Positions 30,844 through 62,565 of a stretch of 64,000 nucleotides of DNA are shown here, in pieces. Position 1 is the first letter of the stretch. Every line of letters starts with the position of its first letter. A program made the translations under genes and the position numbers. Under the pieces are notes generated by a model, which was not told the origin of the DNA, ran no database searches, and saw only the letters and a list, made by a program, of their open reading frames with translations. The DNA is from Paramagnetospirillum magnetotacticum MS-1 (GTDB lineage: Bacteria; Pseudomonadota; Alphaproteobacteria; Rhodospirillales; Magnetospirillaceae): assembly GCF_000829825.1 (NCBI RefSeq), contig NZ_JXSL01000027.1, positions 434,001-498,000 on the forward strand. Reading direction: 5' to 3'.

Positions 30844-33039
30844 CTAAGGCTTGATGGCGAGGCGCACGGCGCCCCAGTGCTTGTCGCGGATAGAGATGGG
30901 GCTGTCGAACTCCTTCAACACCACGAAATTTCCGCCACCCATGTCGCGGGGATAGGTCTGGACGAAGTGAGGCTGGACATTGCGGGCCGCCACCAGCCCG
31001 GCGCGGTCGTCGAAGATGCGTCGGTTGCGGGAATTGGCGGTGTTCCACACCGTCTCGCCCGGCCGCTGGGGCTGGGAATATTTCTTGTTGTGGGTGGCGA
31101 TATAGCCGTTGCGGTCAGCAACACAGCAGATGACGATGCGCTGGTCCTTCTCGAGAACCGTTTCGGTGAACTGATGCACCACGCGATCGGTGAGCATCGC
31201 ATGCTTGGCCAGGAATTGCTGAGGTGAAGTGTCGGCGATGGGCTCGTAATGGGCATCGAACAGATCGGCCTCGGCAATCTCACCGGTCTTCAGCGCCTGC
31301 TCGAAAGCCCCGGTGACCCCAGCGGCGACGCCCTTAACAAGATCGATATAGCTCCGCTCCTCGGCCCGCGCCTTGGCTTGGGCGGCGGCAATCGCAGCAA
31401 GCGCGGCGGCGGCAACCTCGCGGAAACGCACATGCAGGCCAAGAACGCTGGCCCCCACCGCGTCACAGGAAAGCGGCCCGATTCCTTCAAGATCCAGTGT
31501 TCCGCCCTCGCCCACCATGCTGGGATCGTTGAGACCGGCCAGCACCACGCCCTTGGACGCCAGATCGCCGGTATGTCCCTTGACCTCCCTGGTTCCGATG
31601 CGGCCCGTGAAGGCCAGCCCCACGGCGACACGCGGAACCGCCCGGCGATCTCCCGCCGCCGACGAACGCAGAATGATGCCGAGGCGCCGCTGAAGGTCGC
31701 CGACATCGCGGCTGACCACCGTGGAAAGTTCATTGACCTTCTTGGCGGTAAGGCCCGTGCGCTCCGCCTGGCTGAGCACGGACTGCGCATGCCCGTGGAC
31801 GGTCTCGGTATGCTGGGCAGCCTGACCGGCATTTCCCTTGATGTCGGCGGTGGCGGAAAGCTGCATCTCGCTGGCGTGGTTCACTTCCTGGGCGATGGTG
31901 TTGATGTCTTGAATGGACAGCGTCACCTCTTCGACCATGGCCACCGTCTCATCGGTGGCCTGACCGATGGCCTGGGCCTGGGCGTTGACGCCGCGGATGC
32001 CCTCCTCGGTCAGTTTGGCCAGACGCTTGACCTCGTCGGCGACCACGGCGAAGCCCTTGCCCATTTCGCCCGCCCTGGCCGCCTCGATGGTGGCGTTCAG
32101 CGCCAGCATGCGGGTCTGACCGGCGATGGACTGGATGAGGCGCACCACATCGCGGATTCGCCCCGTGGCGTCCTTCAGACCTTCGACCGTGGTGGCGGCG
32201 GTCTCCATCTTCTGTTGGGCGGCATCGGTAAGACGCGATGTGCCGTGAACCTTGGTGGAAATCTGCCGCGACGTCTCCTCCAGCGCCTCGCTGGCCCCGG
32301 CCACGGATTGGACATTATCGCTGGTGACCGATACCGCCTCGGCCACCGACTCGGCCATGGTCTTAAGGGTGGCCGCCACCTGGGCCAGTTCTTGGGCTCC
32401 CTCGATCAGGCGCTTCACCTGCCTTTCGATATCGCCCACGGTCGTCGCCACTTCGCGGTCCACCGTGTCCGAGAGCGCCAGCATCTCGCGCTTCATCTTG
32501 CCGGCCTCGCCATGCTCGATATAGGTCGAGATGGCCAGATCCATATCCAGGAAGGCGGCGCGCAGCACTGCACCCGCCATTTGGGGAAAGCGGGCCTTCT
32601 CGCATTTGGCGTGGAGTTCGGCCATCAGCTTTTCCAGCACGAAGCAATAGCCGCCCAGATACCAGTTCACCTCCAGGCCGATCCGCTCGTGGGCGGCGCC
32701 GATGGCAACGGCACGGGTGAAATAGTCGTCGTCGAAACGCCCCGAGAACAGACTGGCCCAATGGGCCTGCTGGGTCTCTTTCAGATGGCCGATCTTGGCG
32801 CCGCCGCCCAACAGGGCTTTGAGCGCGGGCCATTGCATCAGATGGGCATAAAATCCGTCAGCGATGCCGGGAAGACTGGATTCCACCATCTGGCGAACGG
32901 ATTTGACGGTGGAAATCGCGTCGTCATCCAGGCGCAGAAATCTCAGCCGCTCACGGTTCTTCGACACGGCGTCGTCATCACTAGCCACGCGCCCCTCCTT
33001 GGAAGCCATCCCTCGCGCCGCCCTATACCGAACGGTCAT
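30844..33039 (-). CDS. Soluble globin-coupled chemoreceptor with PilZ domain and C-terminal sensor
   Basis: 731 residues, no membrane helix. Domains in order: globin sensor (about 25-180) with proximal haem His117 in [18 protein letters not shown]; chemoreceptor signalling hairpin (about 220-470) with tip [20 protein letters not shown] and [18 protein letters not shown]; PilZ c-di-GMP domain (about 475-570) with DRRAVPRV and [12 protein letters not shown]-terminal domain (about 590-731) with [20 protein letters not shown] and [17 protein letters not shown], a PAS/Cache-like module common behind signalling domains in this group. It probably links oxygen, c-di-GMP and a third signal to CheA. 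The start is uncertain: ATG 33039 or 33009, neither with a strong ribosome site. Confidence 0.88.
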
Positions 33040-48253: not shown

Positions 48254-49030
48254 ATGGGCCTGCGCATCGCCACCTGGAACGTCAATTCGGTGCGGGCCCG
48301 CCTGGGCAATGTTCTCGATTGGCTGGGCAGTTTCGCGCCCGATGTGGTGTTGTTGCAGGAGATCAAGTGCCAGGACCACGATTTTCCCCGCCTCGAAATC
48401 GAGGCAGCCGGTTATCAAACCGCCGTTCACGGGCAGAAGAGCTATAACGGCGTCGCCATCTTATCGCGCCACGCCATGAGCGATATCAGCCTCCGCCTGC
48501 CCGGTGACGAGAGCGACGAGCAGGCCCGCTATATTGAGGCGACGATCGAAGGCTGGCGCCTCGCCTCCCTTTACCTGCCCAACGGCAATCCGGCGCCGGG
48601 CGACAAATATGACTACAAGCTGGCCTGGATGGCGCGCCTAAGAGCTCATGCCCAGAGCCTTCTTACCCAGGATATCCCCTTCGTCCTGGGCGGCGATTTC
48701 AATATTTGCCCCACCGACGACGATGTCTATGATCCGCCCAACTGGCAAAATGACGCGCTGTGCCGCCCCGACAGCCGCGCCGCCTTCCGCGCCATCGTCA
48801 ACCTTGGGCTGACGGAGGCGTTCCGGGCACTGCATCCAGAGGAAAAGGGCCGTTATTCCTTCTGGGATTATCAGGCGGGCGCATGGCAGAGGGACGAAGG
48901 CCTGCGCATCGACCACTTCCTTCTGTCGCCCCGGGCCGCCGACCATCTGCAAGCTTGCGATATCGACAGGGCCCCCAGGGGTAAGGAAAAGGCCTCGGAC
49001 CATACGCCGGTGTGGATCGAGCTGAGTTGA
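48254..49030 (+). CDS. xth: Exodeoxyribonuclease III
   Basis: AP endonuclease / 3' exonuclease of base-excision repair. 258 residues, the full family length. Catalytic blocks: LRIATWNVNSVRARL, VVLLQEIKCQD with the metal-binding Glu, YNGVAILSR, VLGGDFNICPTDDDVYDP, and DEGLRIDHFLLSP with the final KASDHTPVWIEL. Start is the ATG before GLRIATWNVN; upstream codons in frame lack similarity. Divergent from the DUF922 gene. Confidence 0.95.
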   Translation: MGLRIATWNVNSVRARLGNVLDWLGSFAPDVVLLQEIKCQDHDFPRLEIEAAGYQTAVHGQKSYNGVAILSRHAMSDISLRLPGDESDEQARYIEATIEGWRLASLYLPNGNPAPGDKYDYKLAWMARLRAHAQSLLTQDIPFVLGGDFNICPTDDDVYDPPNWQNDALCRPDSRAAFRAIVNLGLTEAFRALHPEEKGRYSFWDYQAGAWQRDEGLRIDHFLLSPRAADHLQACDIDRAPRGKEKASDHTPVWIELS

Positions 49031-49042
49031 TATCACTTCGTG

Positions 49043-49163
49043 ATGGGGCTTCCGCCCCAACCCGATCAGGGGACCAGCCCTGAAACCCCAGTTCATCTAC
49101 TCATAAAATCTAAGGGGGTCTGGGGCATGAGCCCCAGGCGGGTGTGGGCGGCAGCCCACCAAG
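49043..49163 (+). repeat. Four-hairpin dispersed repeat, copy 2
   Basis: Same order and orientation as the copy at 25966-26087: GGGGC/GCCCC (49045-49058), TCAGGG/CCCTGA (49066-49083), CTGGGGC/GCCCCAG (49120-49137) and GTGGGC/GCCCAC (49144-49159), ending in a shared AAG. The stretch GCGGGTGTGGGCGGC is near-identical between copies. It fills the gap between the convergent ends of the exonuclease III and diiron-protein genes. Confidence 0.75.
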
Positions 49164-49172
49164 ATGTGTTGC

Positions 49173-50309
49173 TTAAAACGGCGTCGCGGTGCTGCAGCTA
49201 TAGGCCTCGCCGCCCACCACCTGGGCGGGGTCTATGCCTTGCCGGGCCTCCAGCAGAGCCAGCTTGATGCGGACATCAGCGACCCGGTGGCGAGGCTCGA
49301 ACTCAGCCAAGGCGCAGTCCTCGCCGAACACATGGCGGTAAAGACCGCTCATCATGGCGAAACGCCCGGCCATCAGCATATTGCAGGCGCCCTTGACCCG
49401 TTCGATGTCGCCCTCCCCCTCCATATGCAGTGAGGTGACCAGCATCACCGAGATGGCGTGGAGCACGTCATAGCGCACATGGGCGATGAAGACTTCGAGA
49501 TGATGGGGCGTAAGGTTCAGGCCGTCGCGTTCCGAGACCTTGATCAGGCCACCCAGCAGCAGACTGAAGAATTCCGGCACACCCCATTCCATGCCAAGCC
49601 CCACCGAGGCCAGGGCCTCCAGCGGGCTGAACGCCCCGTGACCGGCGACAAGACGCTGGATCAGCACATTGTCGGCCACTTCGGCCAGCATGGGAACGTC
49701 CTGATCCTCAAACCCGATCCCCAATCCTTCGAACACCTGCCGGTACATGACGATATGGGTCTTGGCGGCCAGCAGGCGGCCCAGTTCCGGGTAATCGTCG
49801 AGGCCGTGGCTGCCCACGCCATATTCATCGGCCACCAATTGGGCCAGAGCGATCTGGGTCAGCTCGGAACGGCGCTCGCCCACGCTGCCCCGCGCGGTGG
49901 CCGCCAGTCCGTGGAAACGGCCGATGGCCAGGGCGACGCACTGGCGGGTGTTCTTGATCTGATTGAAGTATTGCAGGGCGAAGGTCTTGACCTGGGACGG
50001 CGTGATGCGGCCCTCGAACACCCTGCGGAAAAAGGGGTGCCGCCAAACCGGATGGTCCATCACATGGGTGTGAAGATCCAGGAACATCTCGCCCAGGCGC
50101 GCCGCATCGACCATGCCGCCGTCCATCTGGCGGAAGATACGGTTCAGTTCGGAACCGGGCTCGGCCACCTCAGCGATAACGCGGGTGAAATCGGTACGCT
50201 GGCTGGCGATAAACGAGTCCAGCACCTGATCGGTGGAAAGCTGGAGAAGATCGGGCAAGGGATGGACGCAATCCGGCACGGATCCGTCGGCATGAACCAG
50301 AACGCTCAT
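49173..50309 (-). CDS. Haem-oxygenase-like diiron protein (HDO fold)
   Basis: 378 residues. The core (about 75-300) resembles the iron-containing redox enzyme / Haem_oxygenas_2 family: FALQYFNQIKNTRQCVALAI, LAQLVADEYGVGSHGLDDYP and FIAHVRYDVLHAISVML. The last contains HxxxDxxH (H277, D281, H284), the metal signature of CADD/UndA-like oxygenases; D161/E162, H168 and E241 (GLGMEWGVPEFF) are at compatible positions for the remaining ligands. An 80-residue N-terminal extension is unassigned. Substrate unknown. Its start overlaps the stop of the hemerythrin-receiver gene by four bases, so the two should be made together. Confidence 0.75.
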   Translation of the reverse strand: MSVLVHADGSVPDCVHPLPDLLQLSTDQVLDSFIASQRTDFTRVIAEVAEPGSELNRIFRQMDGGMVDAARLGEMFLDLHTHVMDHPVWRHPFFRRVFEGRITPSQVKTFALQYFNQIKNTRQCVALAIGRFHGLAATARGSVGERRSELTQIALAQLVADEYGVGSHGLDDYPELGRLLAAKTHIVMYRQVFEGLGIGFEDQDVPMLAEVADNVLIQRLVAGHGAFSPLEALASVGLGMEWGVPEFFSLLLGGLIKVSERDGLNLTPHHLEVFIAHVRYDVLHAISVMLVTSLHMEGEGDIERVKGACNMLMAGRFAMMSGLYRHVFGEDCALAEFEPRHRVADVRIKLALLEARQGIDPAQVVGGEAYSCSTATPF

Positions 50310-51154
50310 GCCGCTCTCCCCGCCAGCCGCGCCACGCCCAGGAGCAGATTGCGGGCCGAGATGGGCTTTTCCATGAATTCGTCCGCCCCGGCCAGAAGGG
50401 CAAGGTCACGATTGGCCATGCGCTCGTGCCCCGACAGGACCAGCACTGGCAGGCGGGCTTGATCGGGGGGGCCGCGCCGCACCCAGCGGACCAGATCCAG
50501 CCCGCTTTCCTGGCCCACATGCCAGTCGGACAACAACATATCCAGCGGTTCGTGGGAAATCACCGCCTTGGCCGCCTCCAGATCATGGGCTGCCGAAATC
50601 TTGGTCACGCCGACGCTTTGCAGGATGGTTCGCAGGATTTCCAGGAAATTGACGTTGTCATCCACCAGCAGGATGCGCAGCCGCGCCCAATCCAGGTCCG
50701 CCCCTTTTTGCACCGCCCCGGTCATGGACACCTTCTGGGCAGCAGCCTCGGCTCCCGGATGTCCGATCATCCAGGACCGATAGTTCATGTCCGTGGTGCA
50801 GATATGATCGATCAGCCAGGAATTGAGAAAGGCCAGGCATTCCCGCGCCCGCACGCCGGTCTGGTCCTGGTCGTAGCGGGATTTGAGGCCCAGAACCTTT
50901 TCCGTGAACTGCGCATGGGTTCCGTGGTGGCGCGTTAGCAGCGGATACCGGCAGGCATCCATCATCGCTTCTTCGCGGGCGAAGTGATGGGCTGCGTACT
51001 CTTCCAGGGCCTGCAACACGCTGCCGACGGCAGCGTGTTCCTCGTCATCACCGATGGAACGTTGCAGGTGGTTGATCAGGCCGAGGAGCGTCTTGTGGTC
51101 GGAATCGAGCAGCGGCACGCCGACGCTCATCCGTTCACTCCACGTAAGCCCCAT
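50306..51154 (-). CDS. Bacteriohemerythrin fused to a response-regulator receiver domain
   Basis: 282 residues. Residues 1-130 form a hemerythrin with all seven diiron ligands in place: H20, H57, E61, H76, H80, H117, D122 (HFAREEAMM, HHGTHAQF, DHICTTD). Residues about 158-278 form a receiver: acidic pair D165-D166 (ILLVDDN), phosphorylatable D210 (MLLSDWHVG), a Ser/Gly switch region LVLSGHE and Lys in FMEKPI. No output or DNA-binding domain. Oxygen binding could alter phosphorylation or partner binding. Starts 14 bases after the ilvD stop; overlaps the diiron-protein gene downstream. No histidine kinase in the vicinity. Confidence 0.9.
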   Translation of the reverse strand: MGLTWSERMSVGVPLLDSDHKTLLGLINHLQRSIGDDEEHAAVGSVLQALEEYAAHHFAREEAMMDACRYPLLTRHHGTHAQFTEKVLGLKSRYDQDQTGVRARECLAFLNSWLIDHICTTDMNYRSWMIGHPGAEAAAQKVSMTGAVQKGADLDWARLRILLVDDNVNFLEILRTILQSVGVTKISAAHDLEAAKAVISHEPLDMLLSDWHVGQESGLDLVRWVRRGPPDQARLPVLVLSGHERMANRDLALLAGADEFMEKPISARNLLLGVARLAGRAA

Positions 51155-51168
51155 CGGCCTGTTCCTTC

Positions 51169-53019
51169 TCAGCGGTCCAGTTGCGAGACGTCGCGGACCG
51201 CGCCACGGGCCGCGCTGGTGGTCATGGCGGCATAGGCCTTAAGCGCCGCCGAGACCTGACGGTCGCGATCCACCGGCTTCCAGGCCTTGGCGCCCCGGCC
51301 CTGCATGGCCTGCCTGCGCTTCTCCAATTCGGCATCGGACACCCGAATTGCAATGCTGCGATTAGGAATATGAATATCGATGATATCGCCCGCCTGGATC
51401 AGGCCGATGGCCCCGCCTTCCGCCGCCTCGGGCGAGACGTGGCCGATGGACAGACCCGATGTGCCGCCCGAGAAACGCCCATCTGTGATCAGCGCACATT
51501 CCTTACCCAGGCCCATGCTCTTCAGATAGCTGGTGGGATAAAGCATCTCCTGCATGCCCGGCCCGCCGCGCGGGCCTTCATAGCGCACGATGACCACGTC
51601 GCCGGATTTGACCTGCCCGCCTAGGATCTTGGCCACCGCCTCATCCTGGCTTTCACAGATCACGGCGGGACCGGAGAAGGTCAGGTTCTTGTCGTCAACG
51701 CCCGCCGTCTTAACGATGCAGCCGTCCAAAGCCAGATTGCCGAACAGCACCGCCAGCCCGCCATCCTTGGAAAAGGCACTGTCAACCGAACGAATGACGC
51801 CCTTGGCGCGGTCCTTGTCCACTTCGGCAAAGCGCTTGGACTGGCTGAAAGCCTCGGTGGTGCGCACCCCGCCAGGGGCGGCCTTGTAGAACTCATGCAC
51901 CTTGGGATCGTTGGAGCGCGCGATGTCCCACTTATCCAGACCCTCGGCCATGGTGCGGGAATGGACGGTGCCGCAATCGCGATTGATCAGCCCGCCCCGG
52001 TCCAACTGGCCCAGGATGCCCATGATGCCGCCCGCCCGGTGCACATCCTCGATATGGACGTCGGGCACGTTGGGGGCCACCTTGCACAGGCAGGGCACGC
52101 GGCGCGACAGACGGTCGATGTCGTTCATGCCGAAGGCCACCCCCGCTTCCTGTGCCGCCGCCAGAAGATGAAGCACGGTATTGGTGGAGCCGCCCATGGC
52201 GATATCGAGCGTCATGGCGTTCTCGAAGGCCTGGAAACTGGCGATGGAGCGCGGCAGAACCGAGGAATCATCGCCTTCATAGGCGCGCTTGGCCAGATCG
52301 ACGATGCGCCGCCCGGCCTCCAGGAACAGCTCCTTGCGGTCGGCATGGGTGGCGACCACCGTGCCGTTGCCGGGCAGGCCCAGGCCCAGGGCCTCGATCA
52401 GACAGTTCATGGAATTGGCGGTGAACATGCCTGAACACGAGCCGCAGGTGGGGCAGCTTTCCCGTTCGAAGGCCAGGGCCTCCTCGTCGGAAACATTCTT
52501 GTCGGCGCCCTTGATCATGGCGTCGATCAGATCCACCGCATGGGTCTCGCCCTTATAGGTGACCTTGCCCGCCTCCATGGGCCCGCCCGAAATGAAGATG
52601 GTGGGGATGTTGAGGCGAAGCGACGCCATCAGCATGCCGGGCGTGATCTTGTCGCAATTGGAGATGCAGACCAGGGCGTCGGCGCAATGGGCGTTGACCA
52701 TGTATTCCACGCTGTCGGCGATCAGCTCGCGCGAAGGCAGCGAGTACAGCATGCCCGAATGGCCCATGGCGATGCCGTCATCGATGGCAATGGTGTCGAA
52801 TTCCTTGGCGACGCCGCCCGCCTGCTCGATCTCGCGCGCCACCATCTGGCCCAGATCCTTGAGGTGCACATGGCCGGGCACGAACTGGGTAAAGGAATTG
52901 GCGATGGCGATGATGGGCTTGCCGAAATCGGCATCGGTCATGCCAGTGGCGCGCCAAAGTCCGCGCGCGCCGGACATGTTGCGGCCGTGGGTCGAGGTAC
53001 GGGAACGGTAAGCAGGCAT
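51169..53019 (-). CDS. ilvD: Dihydroxy-acid dehydratase
   Basis: Iron-sulfur dehydratase of valine/isoleucine synthesis. 616 residues. Cluster and active-site cysteines in [16 protein letters not shown] and [19 protein letters not shown]-terminal [20 protein letters not shown] is the family signature. ATG 53019 preferred (GAAGG nine bases upstream) over an in-frame TTG at 53028. Oxygen-sensitive clusters in this enzyme family make its position upstream of two oxygen/diiron proteins notable. Confidence 0.96.
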
Positions 53020-53058
53020 GGCGGTCAACCTTCGTCTGACAAAATAAGGGGGGCCAGA

Positions 53059-53397
53059 TCAGCCCCGGATCTTTTCGGGATTCTGGATGCCCAAGCGCGC
53101 GGCCTCGGTATCGAAGGCCTCGCGATAGAGAGGGAAAGCACGGGTCTTGGAGACGATCTCCCCCGTCCGCGCATGGATATAGTTTTCACGCACCAGCAGA
53201 GGATGCGCGTCCTTGTTGGGGCAGGCGTCACCCTCGGCAATCAGGGCGCGGATCTGGGCGGTCAGCCCGGCGACGTGGCAGGCATCCAGATCGGCTTCCC
53301 CCTGAAGTTCCTCGATCTCGGCCCGCAACTCTTCCAACTCGGCGCGCAGAGCCTCGTTCTCGGCCCGTAATTCTTCCATTTCGTCCAGTTCGCCCAT
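53059..53397 (-). CDS. Small coiled-coil protein of unknown function
   Basis: 112 residues. The first 35 or so are a heptad-rich Glu/Leu coiled coil (MEELRAENEALRAELEELRA), then a region with two cysteines (ADLDACHVAGL, EGDACPNKD) and a basic C-terminal domain with LLVRENYIHARTGEIVSKTR and LGIQNPEKIRG. I do not recognise a named family. The gene starts 3 bases after the HAD dehalogenase stop and is followed 39 bases on by ilvD, so it is probably translated as part of that run. Confidence 0.7.
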   Translation of the reverse strand: MGELDEMEELRAENEALRAELEELRAEIEELQGEADLDACHVAGLTAQIRALIAEGDACPNKDAHPLLVRENYIHARTGEIVSKTRAFPLYREAFDTEAARLGIQNPEKIRG

Positions 53398-53400
53398 GGC

Positions 53401-54078
53401 TCAGCCTCCCAGAATTGCCGGCAACTCGGCCAGACTTGCCACCGTCGCCTTTGTGCCCAGCGGCAATTTCTCCGCCGGAACCTTGTCGCGGTTGATCCAC
53501 ACCACCTGGAAACCGAAAGCGGAGGCACCGCTCACATCCCAGGCATTGGCCGAGACATAGCATACGCTTTCCGGCGCCAAGCCGAAATGGGTGGTAGCCA
53601 GTTGATAAACCAGGGGATCGGGCTTGAAACGCCCCACCGATTGGGCGGACAGAACCGCATCCACCGTGTTTCGAATTCCCGGCATGACCAGCGTGGATTT
53701 CAGCATGGCGAGCGACCCGTTGGATAAAATCGCCATCGGATAGCCCATCTCCCGCAAGCGGTCGAGCGCGCCTTCCGTGTCGGGATAAAGCTCGGGATTG
53801 AGCCATCCCTCCATCAGGCGCAGACGCAAGCCCCGGTCGTCCAGACCGAGCGTGTCCATGGCGAAGTCCAGTGCCTCGTCGGTCAGCCGCCAGAAATCGG
53901 CGTGAACGCCGGGCCGCAACGGCAGCCAGCTCAGTTCCATCTGTCGCTTGCGCCACAACCTCAGCAAGGTATCGGCGCGCTCGCCCAGATCATCGCGCAC
54001 CAATCGGGAAAGACCGTTCAGGTCGAACAGGGTGCCGTAAGCATCGAAGACGCACACCCTGACGGGAGCCAGGGTCAC
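53401..54078 (-). CDS. HAD-superfamily haloacid dehalogenase, type II
   Basis: 225 residues. HAD motifs: VFDAYGTLFD with nucleophile Asp12, AILSNGSLAML (motif II), Lys in VGRFKPDPLVY (motif III) and YVSANAWDVSGASAFG (motif IV, with the Ser/Asn/Asp typical of L-2-haloacid dehalogenases). Hydrolyses carbon-halogen bonds in the family; the natural substrate here is unknown. GTG start at 54078 overlaps the slt stop (GTGA). Confidence 0.88.
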   Translation of the reverse strand: MTLAPVRVCVFDAYGTLFDLNGLSRLVRDDLGERADTLLRLWRKRQMELSWLPLRPGVHADFWRLTDEALDFAMDTLGLDDRGLRLRLMEGWLNPELYPDTEGALDRLREMGYPMAILSNGSLAMLKSTLVMPGIRNTVDAVLSAQSVGRFKPDPLVYQLATTHFGLAPESVCYVSANAWDVSGASAFGFQVVWINRDKVPAEKLPLGTKATVASLAELPAILGG

Positions 54079-56048
54079 GGCTGGGCCTCCGCGGTGCGCC
54101 GTGCCCAGCGCCGCAAATCCGCTTCCAGGGTCGGCCCCGCGGTCTTGCCCAGGCGGCGCCGGTAGACGGCGACGCTTTCCATCACCCTCTGGACATAATT
54201 GCGGGTCTCGCTGAAGGGAATCATTTCCACCCAGTCCACCACATCGGTGCCGTTATCGCGGGGATCGCCATATTCCCTGATCCAGCGGCGCGCCCGGCCC
54301 GGCCCGGCATTGTAGGACGCCAGGGCCAGGATGTAAGACCCCTCGAAATCGTTCACCAGATCACGCAGATAGGCCGAGCCCACCTGCACGTTGAAATTGG
54401 GGTCGTCCAGCTTGTTGACGTGGTATTTCAGGCCGAGCGCCCTGGCCACCTTGGAGGCGGTCGACGGCAGAAGCTGCATCAGTCCCTTGGCCCCGGCCGG
54501 TGATTCGATATCGGCGACGAAGCCGCTTTCCTGGCGGATCAGGGCCAGAACCAAAGCCTTTTCCGGATTGGTCTCGTCGGCATCCAGTTCCGGCACCGGC
54601 CAGCCCGCCTGCACCAGGGTGACGCCCTCGCGATCCGAACGGCGCGCCACGGTCAGCCCCAGATCATGGCGTCCGGTGCGGCTGGCGATCCCCGCCACCA
54701 GGGCACGTTCGCCCGGCGTCTGGACCGTGTCGTTGAGGCGGATCAGGAACGAACGCAGTAATTCGCCCTCTCCCACCTGCATCAGCAAGCGGGCGGCGGC
54801 CACCACATCGCGGCCCTCGAAACGGGCCACATCCTCGGGCGTCGGCTGCGGCTCGTCGGGCAGCGGCCAGTGATGGTCGCCCAGGCGCGAGGCGCCCAGC
54901 TGACCGTAATAGGTGGTGGAATAGCGCGCGGCCCGCGTGTACCAGTCCTTGGCCTTGGCGTCCCCCGAGGCCTCGAAAGCCCGGCCCGCCCAGTAAGCGG
55001 CACGGGCGCGCGAAATGGGATGGCTGGCCCATTCGTGCAACCGGGTGAAGTGATGGATGGCGGTGGTCTTGTCGTCGAGGAAGCGCAAAGCCACCCAACC
55101 GGCCAGGAATTCGGCGTCCACATATTGGGTGCCGCCCTCCAGGCCGTGATCGGCCGCCGCCTGATAGGCCTTGGACACCAAGCCCTTCTGCAGGGCGCGC
55201 CTGGCCAGGATGGCGCGTTCTTGCCACCACAGATCGGGACGGACCTTGTTGCGCGATGGATGGGACAGAAGATCCAGCGCGTCCTCGTCCAGATCCTTCT
55301 GGCGGCGCCAGCGGACGCGCTCGTAGATCAGGCCGGGATCGTCGCGCAAACTGGCGGGGATCGCGTTGATCAGCGGCTCGGGATTGGATTTTCCCGATTG
55401 AAGGGCCAGCCGGGCCTGGGCCACGGCGCGATGGCCCGCATCCACCTTCATGATCATGCGCTGGACCGAGGTTTCCTGACGGTCCCACAGCAGCCGGTCC
55501 AAACGGCGCCAATGGTCCTCGTAGCGCAGATGCTCGCCCAGCAGGTTGAGATACTGCTTTTCCTGAAGCGCCCCGAAACTCTGATTGACCCAGGTGTCGC
55601 GGATGACCTGCACCGCCTGTTCGTCCCGCCCGGCGGCGAACAAAGCGCGGGCGAAGGCCTGCCCGCCATCGGCGGTGGTGGGCGGGTGGCTGTCGAACCA
55701 GGCCAGCACCTGGGCGGTGGGCGTGGCGGCGGTGATGGATTCCTCGGCCCGCTTGGTCATCTGGCTCATCATCGGCCATTCGGGATTGGCATGGATGAAG
55801 GCCGCCAACTGGGCGAAATCGGCTCCCGAGCGTCCCGAGACATAGGCCATCCAGGTCACCAGCCGGGGCAGAACCTTGGACCCTGACTGGCGCGCCAGCC
55901 GGGCTGCTTCGTCGAAATGATCACGCTTGGCCGCCGCGACGGCTTGGCGGGTCAGGGCCATGTCCGCCTCGGCCGAGGCCGGTTGAGGCAGGCCGAGGAC
56001 GATCACAGCGGCGAGGAGGATAGCGGACAGAACCTTCAACGGAGACAT
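54075..56048 (-). CDS. slt: Soluble-type lytic murein transglycosylase
   Basis: Periplasmic enzyme cutting the glycan strand to 1,6-anhydroMurNAc ends. 657 residues: signal peptide to about 27 (LGLPQPASAEA), a long alpha-helical superhelical domain (about 30-480), and a C-terminal SLT domain with catalytic Glu in LALIRQESGFVADIES and PAGAKGLMQLLPSTASKVA, then LASYNAGPGRARRW. Similar in size to E. coli Slt70. First gene of a minus-strand run; divergent from dapA. Confidence 0.94.
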   Translation of the reverse strand: MSPLKVLSAILLAAVIVLGLPQPASAEADMALTRQAVAAAKRDHFDEAARLARQSGSKVLPRLVTWMAYVSGRSGADFAQLAAFIHANPEWPMMSQMTKRAEESITAATPTAQVLAWFDSHPPTTADGGQAFARALFAAGRDEQAVQVIRDTWVNQSFGALQEKQYLNLLGEHLRYEDHWRRLDRLLWDRQETSVQRMIMKVDAGHRAVAQARLALQSGKSNPEPLINAIPASLRDDPGLIYERVRWRRQKDLDEDALDLLSHPSRNKVRPDLWWQERAILARRALQKGLVSKAYQAAADHGLEGGTQYVDAEFLAGWVALRFLDDKTTAIHHFTRLHEWASHPISRARAAYWAGRAFEASGDAKAKDWYTRAARYSTTYYGQLGASRLGDHHWPLPDEPQPTPEDVARFEGRDVVAAARLLMQVGEGELLRSFLIRLNDTVQTPGERALVAGIASRTGRHDLGLTVARRSDREGVTLVQAGWPVPELDADETNPEKALVLALIRQESGFVADIESPAGAKGLMQLLPSTASKVARALGLKYHVNKLDDPNFNVQVGSAYLRDLVNDFEGSYILALASYNAGPGRARRWIREYGDPRDNGTDVVDWVEMIPFSETRNYVQRVMESVAVYRRRLGKTAGPTLEADLRRWARRTAEAQP

Positions 56049-60617: not shown

Positions 60618-61537
60618 TCCTACCCTTCGACACGTCCCTGGCGCTGAAACTGGTGCCGCTTTATCTGCTGATGGGGATCGGCTTTGTGCTGGGACGATTT
60701 GGCGGGGTCAAGGGCCAGGATCTCGGCCGCCTCGCCCTGTTCGTGCTGTCACCCGCCGTGGTGTTCAAGGGTTTCGTCACCGCCGATCTTAGGGGAGCGC
60801 TTCTGGCCCTGCCCTTCGTGGTCTTCGGCCTGTGCTCCGTGGTGGCGCTGCTCACCGCGCCCCTGGCGGGCCGGTTCTGGAAGGACGGGCGCGAGCGCAT
60901 CGCCGCCTTCACCAGCGGTACTGGCAACACCGGCTTCTTCGGCATTCCCGCCTGCCTGGCCCTGGTGGGGCCGGACTCCCTGCCCTATGTGGTGATGGTA
61001 TCGTTCGGCGCCACGGCTTACGAGAATTCAGTGGGCTTTTACACCGTGGCCCGCGCCGAGGCCTCGGTGGGCGGAGCCTTGATGCGGGTGCTGAAATATC
61101 CCGGCCTGCATGCCTGCTGGCTGGGAGCCGCGCTCAATCTGTCGGGCCTCAAGGTGCCCGTCCAGGTGATGCAGGCCGTGGACCTGTTGTCTGGCGGTTT
61201 CGTACCGGTGGGCATGATGATCGTCGGGCTGGGTCTGGCCCAGTTACGCTCGCTCCGCCTGGATTTCGGCTTCACCGCCTTTACCTTCGCGTTGAAATTC
61301 GCCCTATGGCCCGCCTTGGCCCTGGGCTTTGTCTGGCTGGACAAAGGCTGGCTGCATGTCTTCGGGCGGGTCGGGCATCAGGTTCTGCTGATCGAATCCC
61401 TGGTGCCGCTGGCCGCCGTCACGGTGGTGCACGCCAATTTGCGCAACATCCACCCCGACCGCGCCGCCATTGCCGTCGCCGCCAGCACCCTGTTCGCCCT
61501 GGTCTGGCTGCCTGTGGTGTATTCAAGGGCATTCTAG
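60614..61537 (+). CDS. AEC-family transporter
   Basis: 307 residues with about ten membrane helices in the auxin-efflux-carrier fold. Motif GTGNTGFFGIPACLAL in the centre and VPVGMMIVGLGLAQLRSL in the second half are typical; family members move malonate, lactate-type acids or amino acids. Coupling to the glycerate kinase start (ATGA) suggests organic-acid transport. It converges on the mini-chemoreceptor gene, the two overlapping by four bases. Confidence 0.87.
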   Translation: MILPFDTSLALKLVPLYLLMGIGFVLGRFGGVKGQDLGRLALFVLSPAVVFKGFVTADLRGALLALPFVVFGLCSVVALLTAPLAGRFWKDGRERIAAFTSGTGNTGFFGIPACLALVGPDSLPYVVMVSFGATAYENSVGFYTVARAEASVGGALMRVLKYPGLHACWLGAALNLSGLKVPVQVMQAVDLLSGGFVPVGMMIVGLGLAQLRSLRLDFGFTAFTFALKFALWPALALGFVWLDKGWLHVFGRVGHQVLLIESLVPLAAVTVVHANLRNIHPDRAAIAVAASTLFALVWLPVVYSRAF

Positions 61538-62565
61538 ACGCGCTGGACGATCACTCCGTACCAGCCAAGGCCTTCATAGGTCTCATAGCCGGGGGTGCGG
61601 GCATAACCGATCATCACGCCGGTGGGATCAATATAGAAGCCGCGCTCGCCCTGATCGGTGCGCAAAGCGAAGGTCTCGCTCAGCACGCCGGTCCGGTCGG
61701 AGGACGCGATCACCCGATGTCGCGAATCCAGCAGCAGGCAGCGCGACCGCGCCTTGTCCTGGGGGGCGAGCCGCACGCCGTCGACGATGCCCTGGGCCTG
61801 GGCCTCCCAATCAAAGAAGATGCCCAGCGCCCCAATGGGCTTGCCGTCGGCCTCTCCGTTCTCACGGATGGCGGTAGCATAGGTGGCCACCATGGCGTTG
61901 CCGAGGCCGGGCGCCCTGGACACATCCGCTACCGCGAAGTCGCCGCCGCTTTGCGTGGCCATGGCGTCGCGAAACCAGGCTTCGCCGGAAACGTCGGTGC
62001 CCACCACGCCGGGATAGCGCCCATTCCGGCCATTGGCGACGACGCGGCCCTGGGCATCGGCCACCCACAGGTCGAGATAGACGGTGTAGGAATCGAGGAT
62101 CACGCCGAGACGGCGGCATGTATGGTCGGCGACGGCCTTTTCGCCCGGCCGCCCGGCGCAGGCCACCACGGCCGCATCGGTCGCCCACCAGCGCACATCG
62201 CAGGAGCGCTCATAGAGGTTGCGGTCCATCACCTCGATGGTGTTGTGGGCCAGATCGGCCAGACGCTCGCCCCGCACCTGCCGCACCTGAGACGCCAGAC
62301 TTTCGCCAAACCGCGACAATTCGCCCAACCGGCCGCGCAACTCTCCTTGCAAGGAATCGGTCAGCAGGGCGATCTCGTTGGAGATGGCCTTGACCTCATC
62401 GGCCACCACCGCGAAGCCCATCCCCGCCGAGCCGACGCGGTGGGCCTCGATGGTGGCGTTGAGCGCCAGCATCTTGGACCGACGGGTAATCCCGTTGATA
62501 CGCATGATCTTGTCATCGGCCACCGAGGCCACGCCGCCCGTCAACTGAAGCAATTGCTCGATCAT
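61534..62565 (-). CDS. Mini-chemoreceptor: signalling tip followed by Cache-like sensor
   Basis: 343 residues, no membrane helix and no HAMP. Residues about 15-75 match only the tip of a chemoreceptor hairpin ([36 protein letters not shown]); residues about 130-340 are Cache/PDC-like (LDLWVADAQGRVVANGRNGR, GEAWFRDAMATQSGGDFAVA, CLLLDSRHRVIASSDRTG). The order is the reverse of classical receptors. GGGAG 6 bases before the ATG supports a genuine short start, so it is not obviously a truncated fragment. Whether the tip can bind CheA/CheW is unclear. Confidence 0.82.
   Translation of the reverse strand: MIEQLLQLTGGVASVADDKIMRINGITRRSKMLALNATIEAHRVGSAGMGFAVVADEVKAISNEIALLTDSLQGELRGRLGELSRFGESLASQVRQVRGERLADLAHNTIEVMDRNLYERSCDVRWWATDAAVVACAGRPGEKAVADHTCRRLGVILDSYTVYLDLWVADAQGRVVANGRNGRYPGVVGTDVSGEAWFRDAMATQSGGDFAVADVSRAPGLGNAMVATYATAIRENGEADGKPIGALGIFFDWEAQAQGIVDGVRLAPQDKARSRCLLLDSRHRVIASSDRTGVLSETFALRTDQGERGFYIDPTGVMIGYARTPGYETYEGLGWYGVIVQRV

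Follow-up and report, generated by a model that had tools for sequence, protein, structure and literature searches.

Do two overlapping genes, each encoding a protein with the residues for a diiron centre, work together, and what else are they tied to? The question is raised by a locus in a 64-kb window (64,000 nucleotides) of Paramagnetospirillum magnetotacticum MS-1, taken from contig NZ_JXSL01000027.1 of a 4.52 Mb genome. On its − strand the window encodes P0002 (50306..51154; 282 aa), in which a hemerythrin domain is joined to a response regulator receiver domain and which we call the hemerythrin-receiver protein, and P0001 (49173..50309; 378 aa), a protein predicted to have the fold of the haem-oxygenase-like dimetal oxidases/oxygenases (HDO). 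The two open reading frames (ORFs) overlap by 4 bases, ATGA, as an earlier note made from the letters of this DNA had described. Overlooked in that initial reading was the gene directly upstream, ilvD (51169..53028, − strand), which lies 14 bases from the hemerythrin-receiver gene and is the commonest constant neighbour of both genes. The trio spans 53028-49173, and the tie of both genes to ilvD is the strongest fact about the locus.

Both genes are tied to ilvD

The ilvD product is assigned as dihydroxy-acid dehydratase by two models, both at scores above their equivalog cut-offs (NF009103, 1158.5 bits against 710; TIGR00110, 813.9 bits against 618.15), and the gene is single-copy, being the sole match in the window's genome. 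The dihydroxy-acid dehydratase of E. coli has an oxygen-labile iron-sulfur (Fe-S) cluster.

Homologues of the HDO gene were found in 32 of 297 genomes of the order, representing 12 of 111 genera (genomes are numbered G below, loci L and contigs C). The gene context is readable in 31 of these, and in 24 of the 31 it is ilvD that heads the run of genes leading to HDO, with a hemerythrin-receiver gene between the two in 20, a bare receiver gene in two and nothing in two. The hemerythrin-receiver gene adjoins HDO in 21 of the 32 genomes, 20 of them from one family (G000, G003, G007, G008, G012, G013, G014, G018, G020, G021, G025, G033, G038, G041, G044, G047, G049, G050, G051 and G054) and one, G1033, from another. 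We see ilvD ahead of this pair in 20 of the 21 cases, and in the last, G025, the contig stops before the ilvD position. The pair is therefore found well beyond the strain in which the earlier note described it, and with 21 genomes in which the genes are adjacent, a strain-specific oddity or chance neighbourhood can be ruled out. The trio is also present in G008, a single-contig genome of 4,967,148 bases.

The same tie is seen from the side of the hemerythrin-receiver gene, which comes immediately after a same-strand ilvD gene at 46 of the 52 loci examined. This count is made up of 20/20 fetched loci, 19/19 loci beside HDO (those of the relatives set with enough contig upstream), the loci of G029, G037 and G1033, and 4/10 further loci; weaker hemerythrin-receiver paralogues, for example G001:C265, G031:C7, G035:C21, G036:C177 and G043:C77 among the matches listed, fall outside the 52. 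The spacing from ilvD is −1 to 36 bases in 36 of the 42 loci for which it was computed, and the remaining values are 69 to 339 bases, plus 1503 bases in G095, where the second of two tandem copies was measured. In that genome (L061:5007-7108) two hemerythrin-receiver genes lie in tandem downstream of ilvD. The link between ilvD and the hemerythrin-receiver gene persists without the other genes of the block in G006, G063 and G089:C18, and because it persists where those genes are missing it is more than frozen synteny.

From spacing and conservation, we infer that three genes, ilvD, hemerythrin-receiver and HDO, belong to one operon. The 4-base overlap of the latter two is present in 10 of the 21 hemerythrin-receiver/HDO pairs, start codons being chosen heuristically. 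It suggests translational coupling; the stoichiometric production that had been predicted from it does not follow.

A hemerythrin joined to a receiver without an output domain

The hemerythrin-receiver protein scores above the Pfam cut-offs for Hemerythrin (58.1 bits against 25.3) and Response_reg (67.6 against 30.2), and above those of two NCBIfam models, both for hemerythrin (NF033749, 116.9 bits against 84; TIGR02481, 114.8 against 51.75). None of the 23 other models among the best 25 of 85 NCBIfam matches passes. No further Pfam family scores above its cut-off, so no output domain is found.

The hemerythrin domain comprises residues 3-129 (50768..51148, − strand), and none of its seven diiron ligands (five His, one Glu and one Asp: H20, H57, E61, H76, H80, H117 and D122) varies among 43 aligned homologues. 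With these ligands and a score above the family cut-off, the domain qualifies as a bacteriohemerythrin. The receiver domain occupies residues 159-276 (50327..50680, − strand) and has the expected phospho-acceptor Asp, acidic pocket and conserved Lys: D210, K263 and P264 are invariant in the same 43 aligned homologues, and D165 and D166 are kept in at least 90% of them. The complete ligand set and intact, output-less receiver claimed at the outset are thus upheld. An AlphaFold2 model of the whole protein (mean predicted local distance difference test, pLDDT, 88.4; predicted template modelling score, pTM, 0.74) shows a bundle of helices and a receiver of alternating strands and helices, connected by a loose linker, residues 147-151 falling below a pLDDT of 50.

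This architecture is not new in itself, because four hemerythrin-CheY-like chimeras were counted in a 2008 survey, which also reported 31 hemerythrins in M. magnetotacticum (PMC2556348; here and below, cited papers are drawn on for their available portions). When 385 genomes of the class were searched with a profile, full-length hemerythrin-receiver proteins were seen, among the matches listed, only in the window's genome and G024; each of the other matches listed is confined to one of the two parts, hemerythrin or receiver.

A predicted HDO fold with an invariant candidate ligand set

The second protein is predicted to have the haem-oxygenase-like fold. Its AlphaFold2 model (pLDDT 87, pTM 0.88) is such a bundle, as the earlier note had anticipated, and its top match in a Foldseek search of the PDB is CtCADD (E 7e-6, template modelling score 0.86-0.88 of the target). 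PqqC, HrmI and UndA also match at E < 0.001, and PolF, BesC and FlcD match more weakly, yet with a probability of 1.00. Sequence searches barely reach this family. The window protein scores 24.6 bits against Pfam Haem_oxygenas_2, under a cut-off of 28.9 that is a naming threshold and not a biochemical feature; 26 of 28 aligned members match this family at E <= 0.01, the best at 5.9e-8. The best PDB profile match is a p-aminobenzoate synthase, at E 0.028.

Seven residues, E162, H185, E241, E246, H277, D281 and H284, do not vary among the 28 aligned members or among the 20 rows of a second set, which shares 16 rows with the first; neither alignment includes the broken copy of G054 or the fragment of G077. 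This extends to all aligned members the H277/D281/H284 motif and the accompanying acidic and His residues that had been noticed in the single sequence, and the residues fit a candidate three-His, three-carboxylate (3H/3C) ligand set of the kind described for HDO enzymes (PMC13108848). E162 (49824..49826, − strand), within the invariant segment D161-E162-Y163-G164, is a candidate metal ligand by its invariance, and its assignment is tentative. H185 (49755..49757) is a further candidate, favoured over H168 because the latter, although closer to E162, is not invariant, being Arg in L036. Either E241 or E246, which lie together in the segment GMEWGVPEFF (49572..49589), would be the expected core Glu ligand, and H277-x3-D281-x2-H284 (49458..49481, all on the − strand) would form the HDO core-helix motif. 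Non-significant HMMER stretches align the last three residues with the H-x3-D-x2-H of 9pj4 and 3dde. Another such stretch places the His-Ile-x-Leu segment of CtCADD, the His of which we take to be CADD ligand H88, on H185.

With CtCADD as the best structural match, and an N-terminal segment that weakly resembles the CADD model TIGR04305 (20 bits, where the cut-off is 200), the protein might be thought a CADD-type self-sacrificing p-aminobenzoate synthase. In those enzymes Tyr27 of CtCADD is the residue consumed, and its role and that of Lys152 have been set out (PMC11965152, PMC13108848). Here, HMMER aligns Tyr27 with Phe94, which is Phe in every row of both alignments (28 and 20 rows). As the sacrificial Tyr is replaced by an invariant Phe, the family is not of the CADD type, and we give that assignment next to no credence.

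An oxygen-responsive module at ilvD?

The mechanism that we prefer, and put forward tentatively, is that the trio serves branched-chain synthesis as an accessory module responsive to oxygen, by which that synthesis would be adjusted to the oxygen supply. The hemerythrin domain would read or buffer oxygen or redox state, and the phosphorylated receiver would act by protein contact, with the HDO protein as its likely target where present. The HDO protein, in turn, would spend oxygen on a branched-chain metabolite that IlvD itself or a later step produces, or might simply clear oxygen or peroxide from the surroundings of the dehydratase, whose Fe-S cluster is oxygen-labile. There is a precedent for a single-domain response regulator that acts on an enzyme (PMC12802240). 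A branched-chain substrate is a fair alternative, because the HDO PolF acts on isoleucine (PMC13108848). A role in handling oxygen would fit two precedents by analogy: the HDO DtpC of Acinetobacter, which limits peroxide in drying cells and seemingly gives no protection against acute peroxide stress (PMC13232832), and the hemerythrin-like YtfE, once proposed to help repair the Fe-S clusters of dehydratases, including dihydroxy-acid dehydratase, and later disputed in this role (PMC9052748).

The genomes in which the site is altered bear on how the parts of such a module might interact. In G028 and G036 the order is ilvD, bare receiver, HDO; the receiver of G028 scores 84.6 bits against Response_reg, and that of G036 is 97% identical. 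In G030 and G077 HDO follows ilvD directly, at gaps of 2 and 31 bases, respectively, the HDO gene of G077 being cut by the contig end. Counting receivers of either kind, 23 of the 32 genomes have one adjoining HDO. A receiver tree built from 70 rows (44 from hemerythrin-receivers, 24 from receivers of the window's genome that best match the bare receiver, and 2 from the bare receivers) groups the bare receivers with the receiver domains of the hemerythrin-receivers at a Shimodaira-Hasegawa-like approximate likelihood ratio (SH-aLRT) of 88, on an unstarred branch, and the nearest starred branch (99) merely separates the 36 closest hemerythrin-receivers from all else. We hold with moderate confidence that the bare receivers may have arisen by loss of the hemerythrin domain while the receiver was kept.

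A number of observations weigh against the module. The receiver tree has only 126 columns and long branches, and the window receiver ranks third of 104 in its genome as a match to the bare receiver. HDO stands without an adjacent hemerythrin-receiver gene in 11 of the 32 genomes, and away from ilvD in 7 of 31, four of these behind a gene of malic-enzyme type. Conversely, 23 genomes have a hemerythrin-receiver gene behind ilvD and no HDO match anywhere in the genome. No upstream ilvD match is seen at six of the 52 hemerythrin-receiver loci (G062, G089:C20, G055, G075:C89, G043 and G028:C539); their proteins are remote, at 28-35% identity, and in G062 and G043 there are just a few hundred bases of contig ahead of the gene. 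No residue of the hemerythrin-receiver protein marks the presence of HDO when 20 and 23 rows are compared (best contrast 0.55). The link to ilvD could also reflect a shared operon position alone.

These observations lead to a rival that we rank slightly ahead of the module, as quite possible if short of probable, and that supplies no mechanism: the HDO protein would be a substrate-specific oxygenase or oxidase and the hemerythrin-receiver a separate signalling or oxygen-buffering protein, with only the operon in common. Each gene occurs independently of the other, no hemerythrin-receiver residue discriminates the two situations, and full-length HDO homologues share 55-85% identity with the window protein whatever their context, the malic-enzyme, amidotransferase and Rhodoblastus sites described below among them. 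Set against this is the placement of a receiver between ilvD and HDO in 22 of the 24 genomes that have both in one run, in more than one family, and the retention of a bare receiver at that position in G028 and G036.

Those two bare receivers also speak for a direct action of the receiver on the enzyme. If the receiver, phosphorylated by a cellular kinase, gated HDO directly, with hemerythrin adding an oxygen input, one would understand why the receiver has no output domain, why the genes are tight and often overlapping (by 4 bases in 10 of 21 pairs), and why a receiver without hemerythrin adjoins HDO in two genomes. However, 9 of 32 genomes have no receiver beside HDO, two of which (G030 and G077) stop at a contig edge, and we consider direct gating unlikely. 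In short, gene order and the bare receivers suggest receiver-HDO contact, and the occurrence of HDO without a nearby receiver opposes it. A receiver acting as HDO effector could also be set within the ilvD context, such that oxygen at hemerythrin and phosphorylation of the receiver jointly switch a dimetal oxygenase whose role is either to convert a branched-chain metabolite or to shield IlvD; we regard this combination as improbable. If it held, there would be an HDO regulated by a protein partner, and bacteria of the oxic-anoxic boundary would possess a side branch of valine/isoleucine synthesis under the control of oxygen.

The least likely form of partnership is the one first proposed for the pair, in which hemerythrin hands oxygen or iron to HDO. 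Both proteins carry residues predicted to form diiron centres and their genes overlap, but HDO is retained with no hemerythrin domain at the site in G028 and G036, where a bare receiver is present, and in G030 and G077, where there is none, and it is found at seven other sites as well. Because each partner persists without the other (hemerythrin-receiver in 23 genomes, HDO in 11 of 32), obligatory delivery of oxygen from hemerythrin to HDO is unlikely, and we now see little prospect for hand-over. The four genomes named do carry other hemerythrin matches, and a general supply from these is conceivable.

HDO at other sites

Beyond the ilvD site, HDO genes are found in G029, G037, G057, G089, G840, G862 and G873, as well as in a Rhodoblastus and a gammaproteobacterial metagenome-assembled genome (MAG). 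In four genomes from one genus of another family, HDO comes after a malic-enzyme-type gene and before a regulator gene: G840 (L106:3831-7705), G057 (L068), G862 (L107) and G873 (L108). The malic-enzyme-type gene matches Pfam malic and PTA_PTB in G057 and scores 1172 bits against NF009501 in G840, just below the cut-off of 1178; it overlaps HDO by 4 bases in G840 and G862. The regulator is MerR by Pfam in G840 and by clustering in the other three. This malic-enzyme/MerR setting is a second conserved context of the same HDO family.

A class-I glutamine amidotransferase gene lies beside HDO in G037 and G029, identified by Pfam on the G037 contig and by clustering for G029. In these two genomes (L063:5103-7046 and L064:4450-6422) the amidotransferase gene starts 9 or 29 bases after HDO, and the pair of ilvD and hemerythrin-receiver sits elsewhere in the same genomes. 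In G089 HDO is beside a signal-peptidase gene. At the Rhodoblastus locus (L036:4102-6176) a gene for an Rrf2-type regulator is divergent to the HDO gene.

Distribution and descent of the HDO family

Among 99 relatives, 28 genomes carry HDO (11 of 53 genera), all of them included in the 32 of the order. Searches of 385 genomes of the class (E <= 1e-8) and 398 of the phylum (E <= 1e-6) returned only the window's own genome, so that HDO does not appear as a widespread family in these draws, thin as they are. A scan of close relatives adds two records from outside the draws, Rhodoblastus sp. 17X3 and the gammaproteobacterial MAG, and its other ten loci recur among the G genomes. The nearest named matches are a Phaeospirillum MAG, a Magnetospirillum MAG and Paramagnetospirillum strains. 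A plasmid-borne module can be discounted, there being no match at E <= 1e-5 in 72,556 plasmid records. Identity to the window protein is 55-85% for full-length members and 45-52% for the G077 fragment. Overall, HDO is a narrowly distributed, well-delimited subfamily, and apparently an undescribed one.

On an ilvD tree of 43 of 47 rows, short rows having been left out, the presence of HDO behind ilvD requires 10 changes, where shuffling gives a mean of 14.5 and a value as low in 6 of 500 cases. An HDO tree was made from 34 of 36 rows, G054 and G077 being omitted as broken or cut, and includes two identical row pairs that represent the same contigs. Within the family it resembles the ilvD tree by eye, in keeping with an HDO gene that was inherited vertically and lost several times. 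Repeated loss of HDO from one site would be the simplest reading, with gains also possible. In G054 (G054:C8:787101-788275; L079:5902-7076) HDO is in two frames, which reflects either a frameshifted gene or an assembly error.

Relation to described systems

Among proteins of the predicted fold, the self-sacrificing p-aminobenzoate synthases CtCADD and NePabS share with the family a similar HPF-segment, and CtCADD has similar ligand segments in non-significant stretches. They differ in that CtCADD is only 15-17% identical and the HDO protein has Phe at the sacrificial Tyr; the latter is also about 150 residues longer than 1rcw, and its gene is mostly behind ilvD. UndA, HrmI, BesC, PolF and FlcD are fold matches at a Foldseek probability of 1.00 and likewise have a 3H/3C-type set, at 10-16% identity among the matches listed. 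Characterised HDOs make natural products or alkenes, and the available text of a 2026 review describes no required protein effector for them, MboA having a redox partner; about a dozen had been functionally validated at that time (PMC13108848). The present family adds to this large enzyme class a subfamily with a clear genomic context. DtpC of Acinetobacter baumannii, likened here by its description, is an HDO tied to oxidative stress rather than biosynthesis, and no receiver or hemerythrin partner is described in the accessible part of that report (PMC13232832).

For the hemerythrin-receiver protein, the characterised hemerythrin sensors covered by the available text of a 2022 review are methyl-accepting chemotaxis proteins (MCPs), cyclic di-GMP proteins and P-type ATPase proteins (PMC9388753). 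DcrH, Bhr-DGC, Bhr-HD-GYP and the hemerythrin-CheY-like chimeras likewise join a liganded hemerythrin to a signalling domain; unlike in DcrH, Bhr-DGC and Bhr-HD-GYP, the signalling part is here an output-less receiver encoded behind ilvD. To our knowledge, YtfE/RIC has no receiver. It is likewise a hemerythrin-like diiron protein that has been linked, in a disputed proposal, to Fe-S repair of dehydratases (PMC9052748).

We found no description of the hemerythrin-receiver/HDO pair, or of the trio with ilvD, in a literature of which subscription papers are largely uncovered, and the trio is absent from the available portions of PMC5459824, PMC13401364, PMC9388753, PMC2556348, PMC4919030, PMC9549626 and PMC12442639; to that extent the earlier claim that no system of this make-up had been described still stands. 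The link between hemerythrin-receiver and ilvD across families of the order, with the trio found in relatives of magnetic bacteria, raises the question of whether oxygen sensing acts on branched-chain synthesis.

Operon limits and other features of the window

Upstream of ilvD, and on the same − strand, are genes for a small coiled-coil-like protein (53059..53397), for which no Pfam family scores above its cut-off, a HAD hydrolase (53401..54078; Pfam Hydrolase, 73.9 bits) and a lytic-transglycosylase-like protein (54075..56048), which overlaps the HAD gene, is named from a reading of its ORF sequence and is a frequent neighbour in the loci compared. The first two are possible earlier members of the operon, and because the gaps between these same-strand genes are at most about 30 bases, the trio may end a longer operon. 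Between the small coiled-coil gene and ilvD lies a terminator-like stem (53066-53050, − strand) that, if real, would part ilvD from the upstream genes and so speaks against a longer operon. In scans of 49000-53450, terminator-like stems (2, compared to 2.6 in shuffled sequence) and sigma-70 sites (1, compared to 1.0) show no excess.

Finally, two further genes of the window encode signalling domains. In the ORF at 61534-62565 (− strand), part of an MCP signalling domain (residues 20-66) precedes a Cache match that scores below its cut-off (residues 157-257). This domain order is unusual, and the gene may be truncated or wrongly started. At 30844-33039 (− strand), a protoglobin and a chemotaxis signalling domain are combined in one protein, making it a candidate oxygen-taxis receptor.

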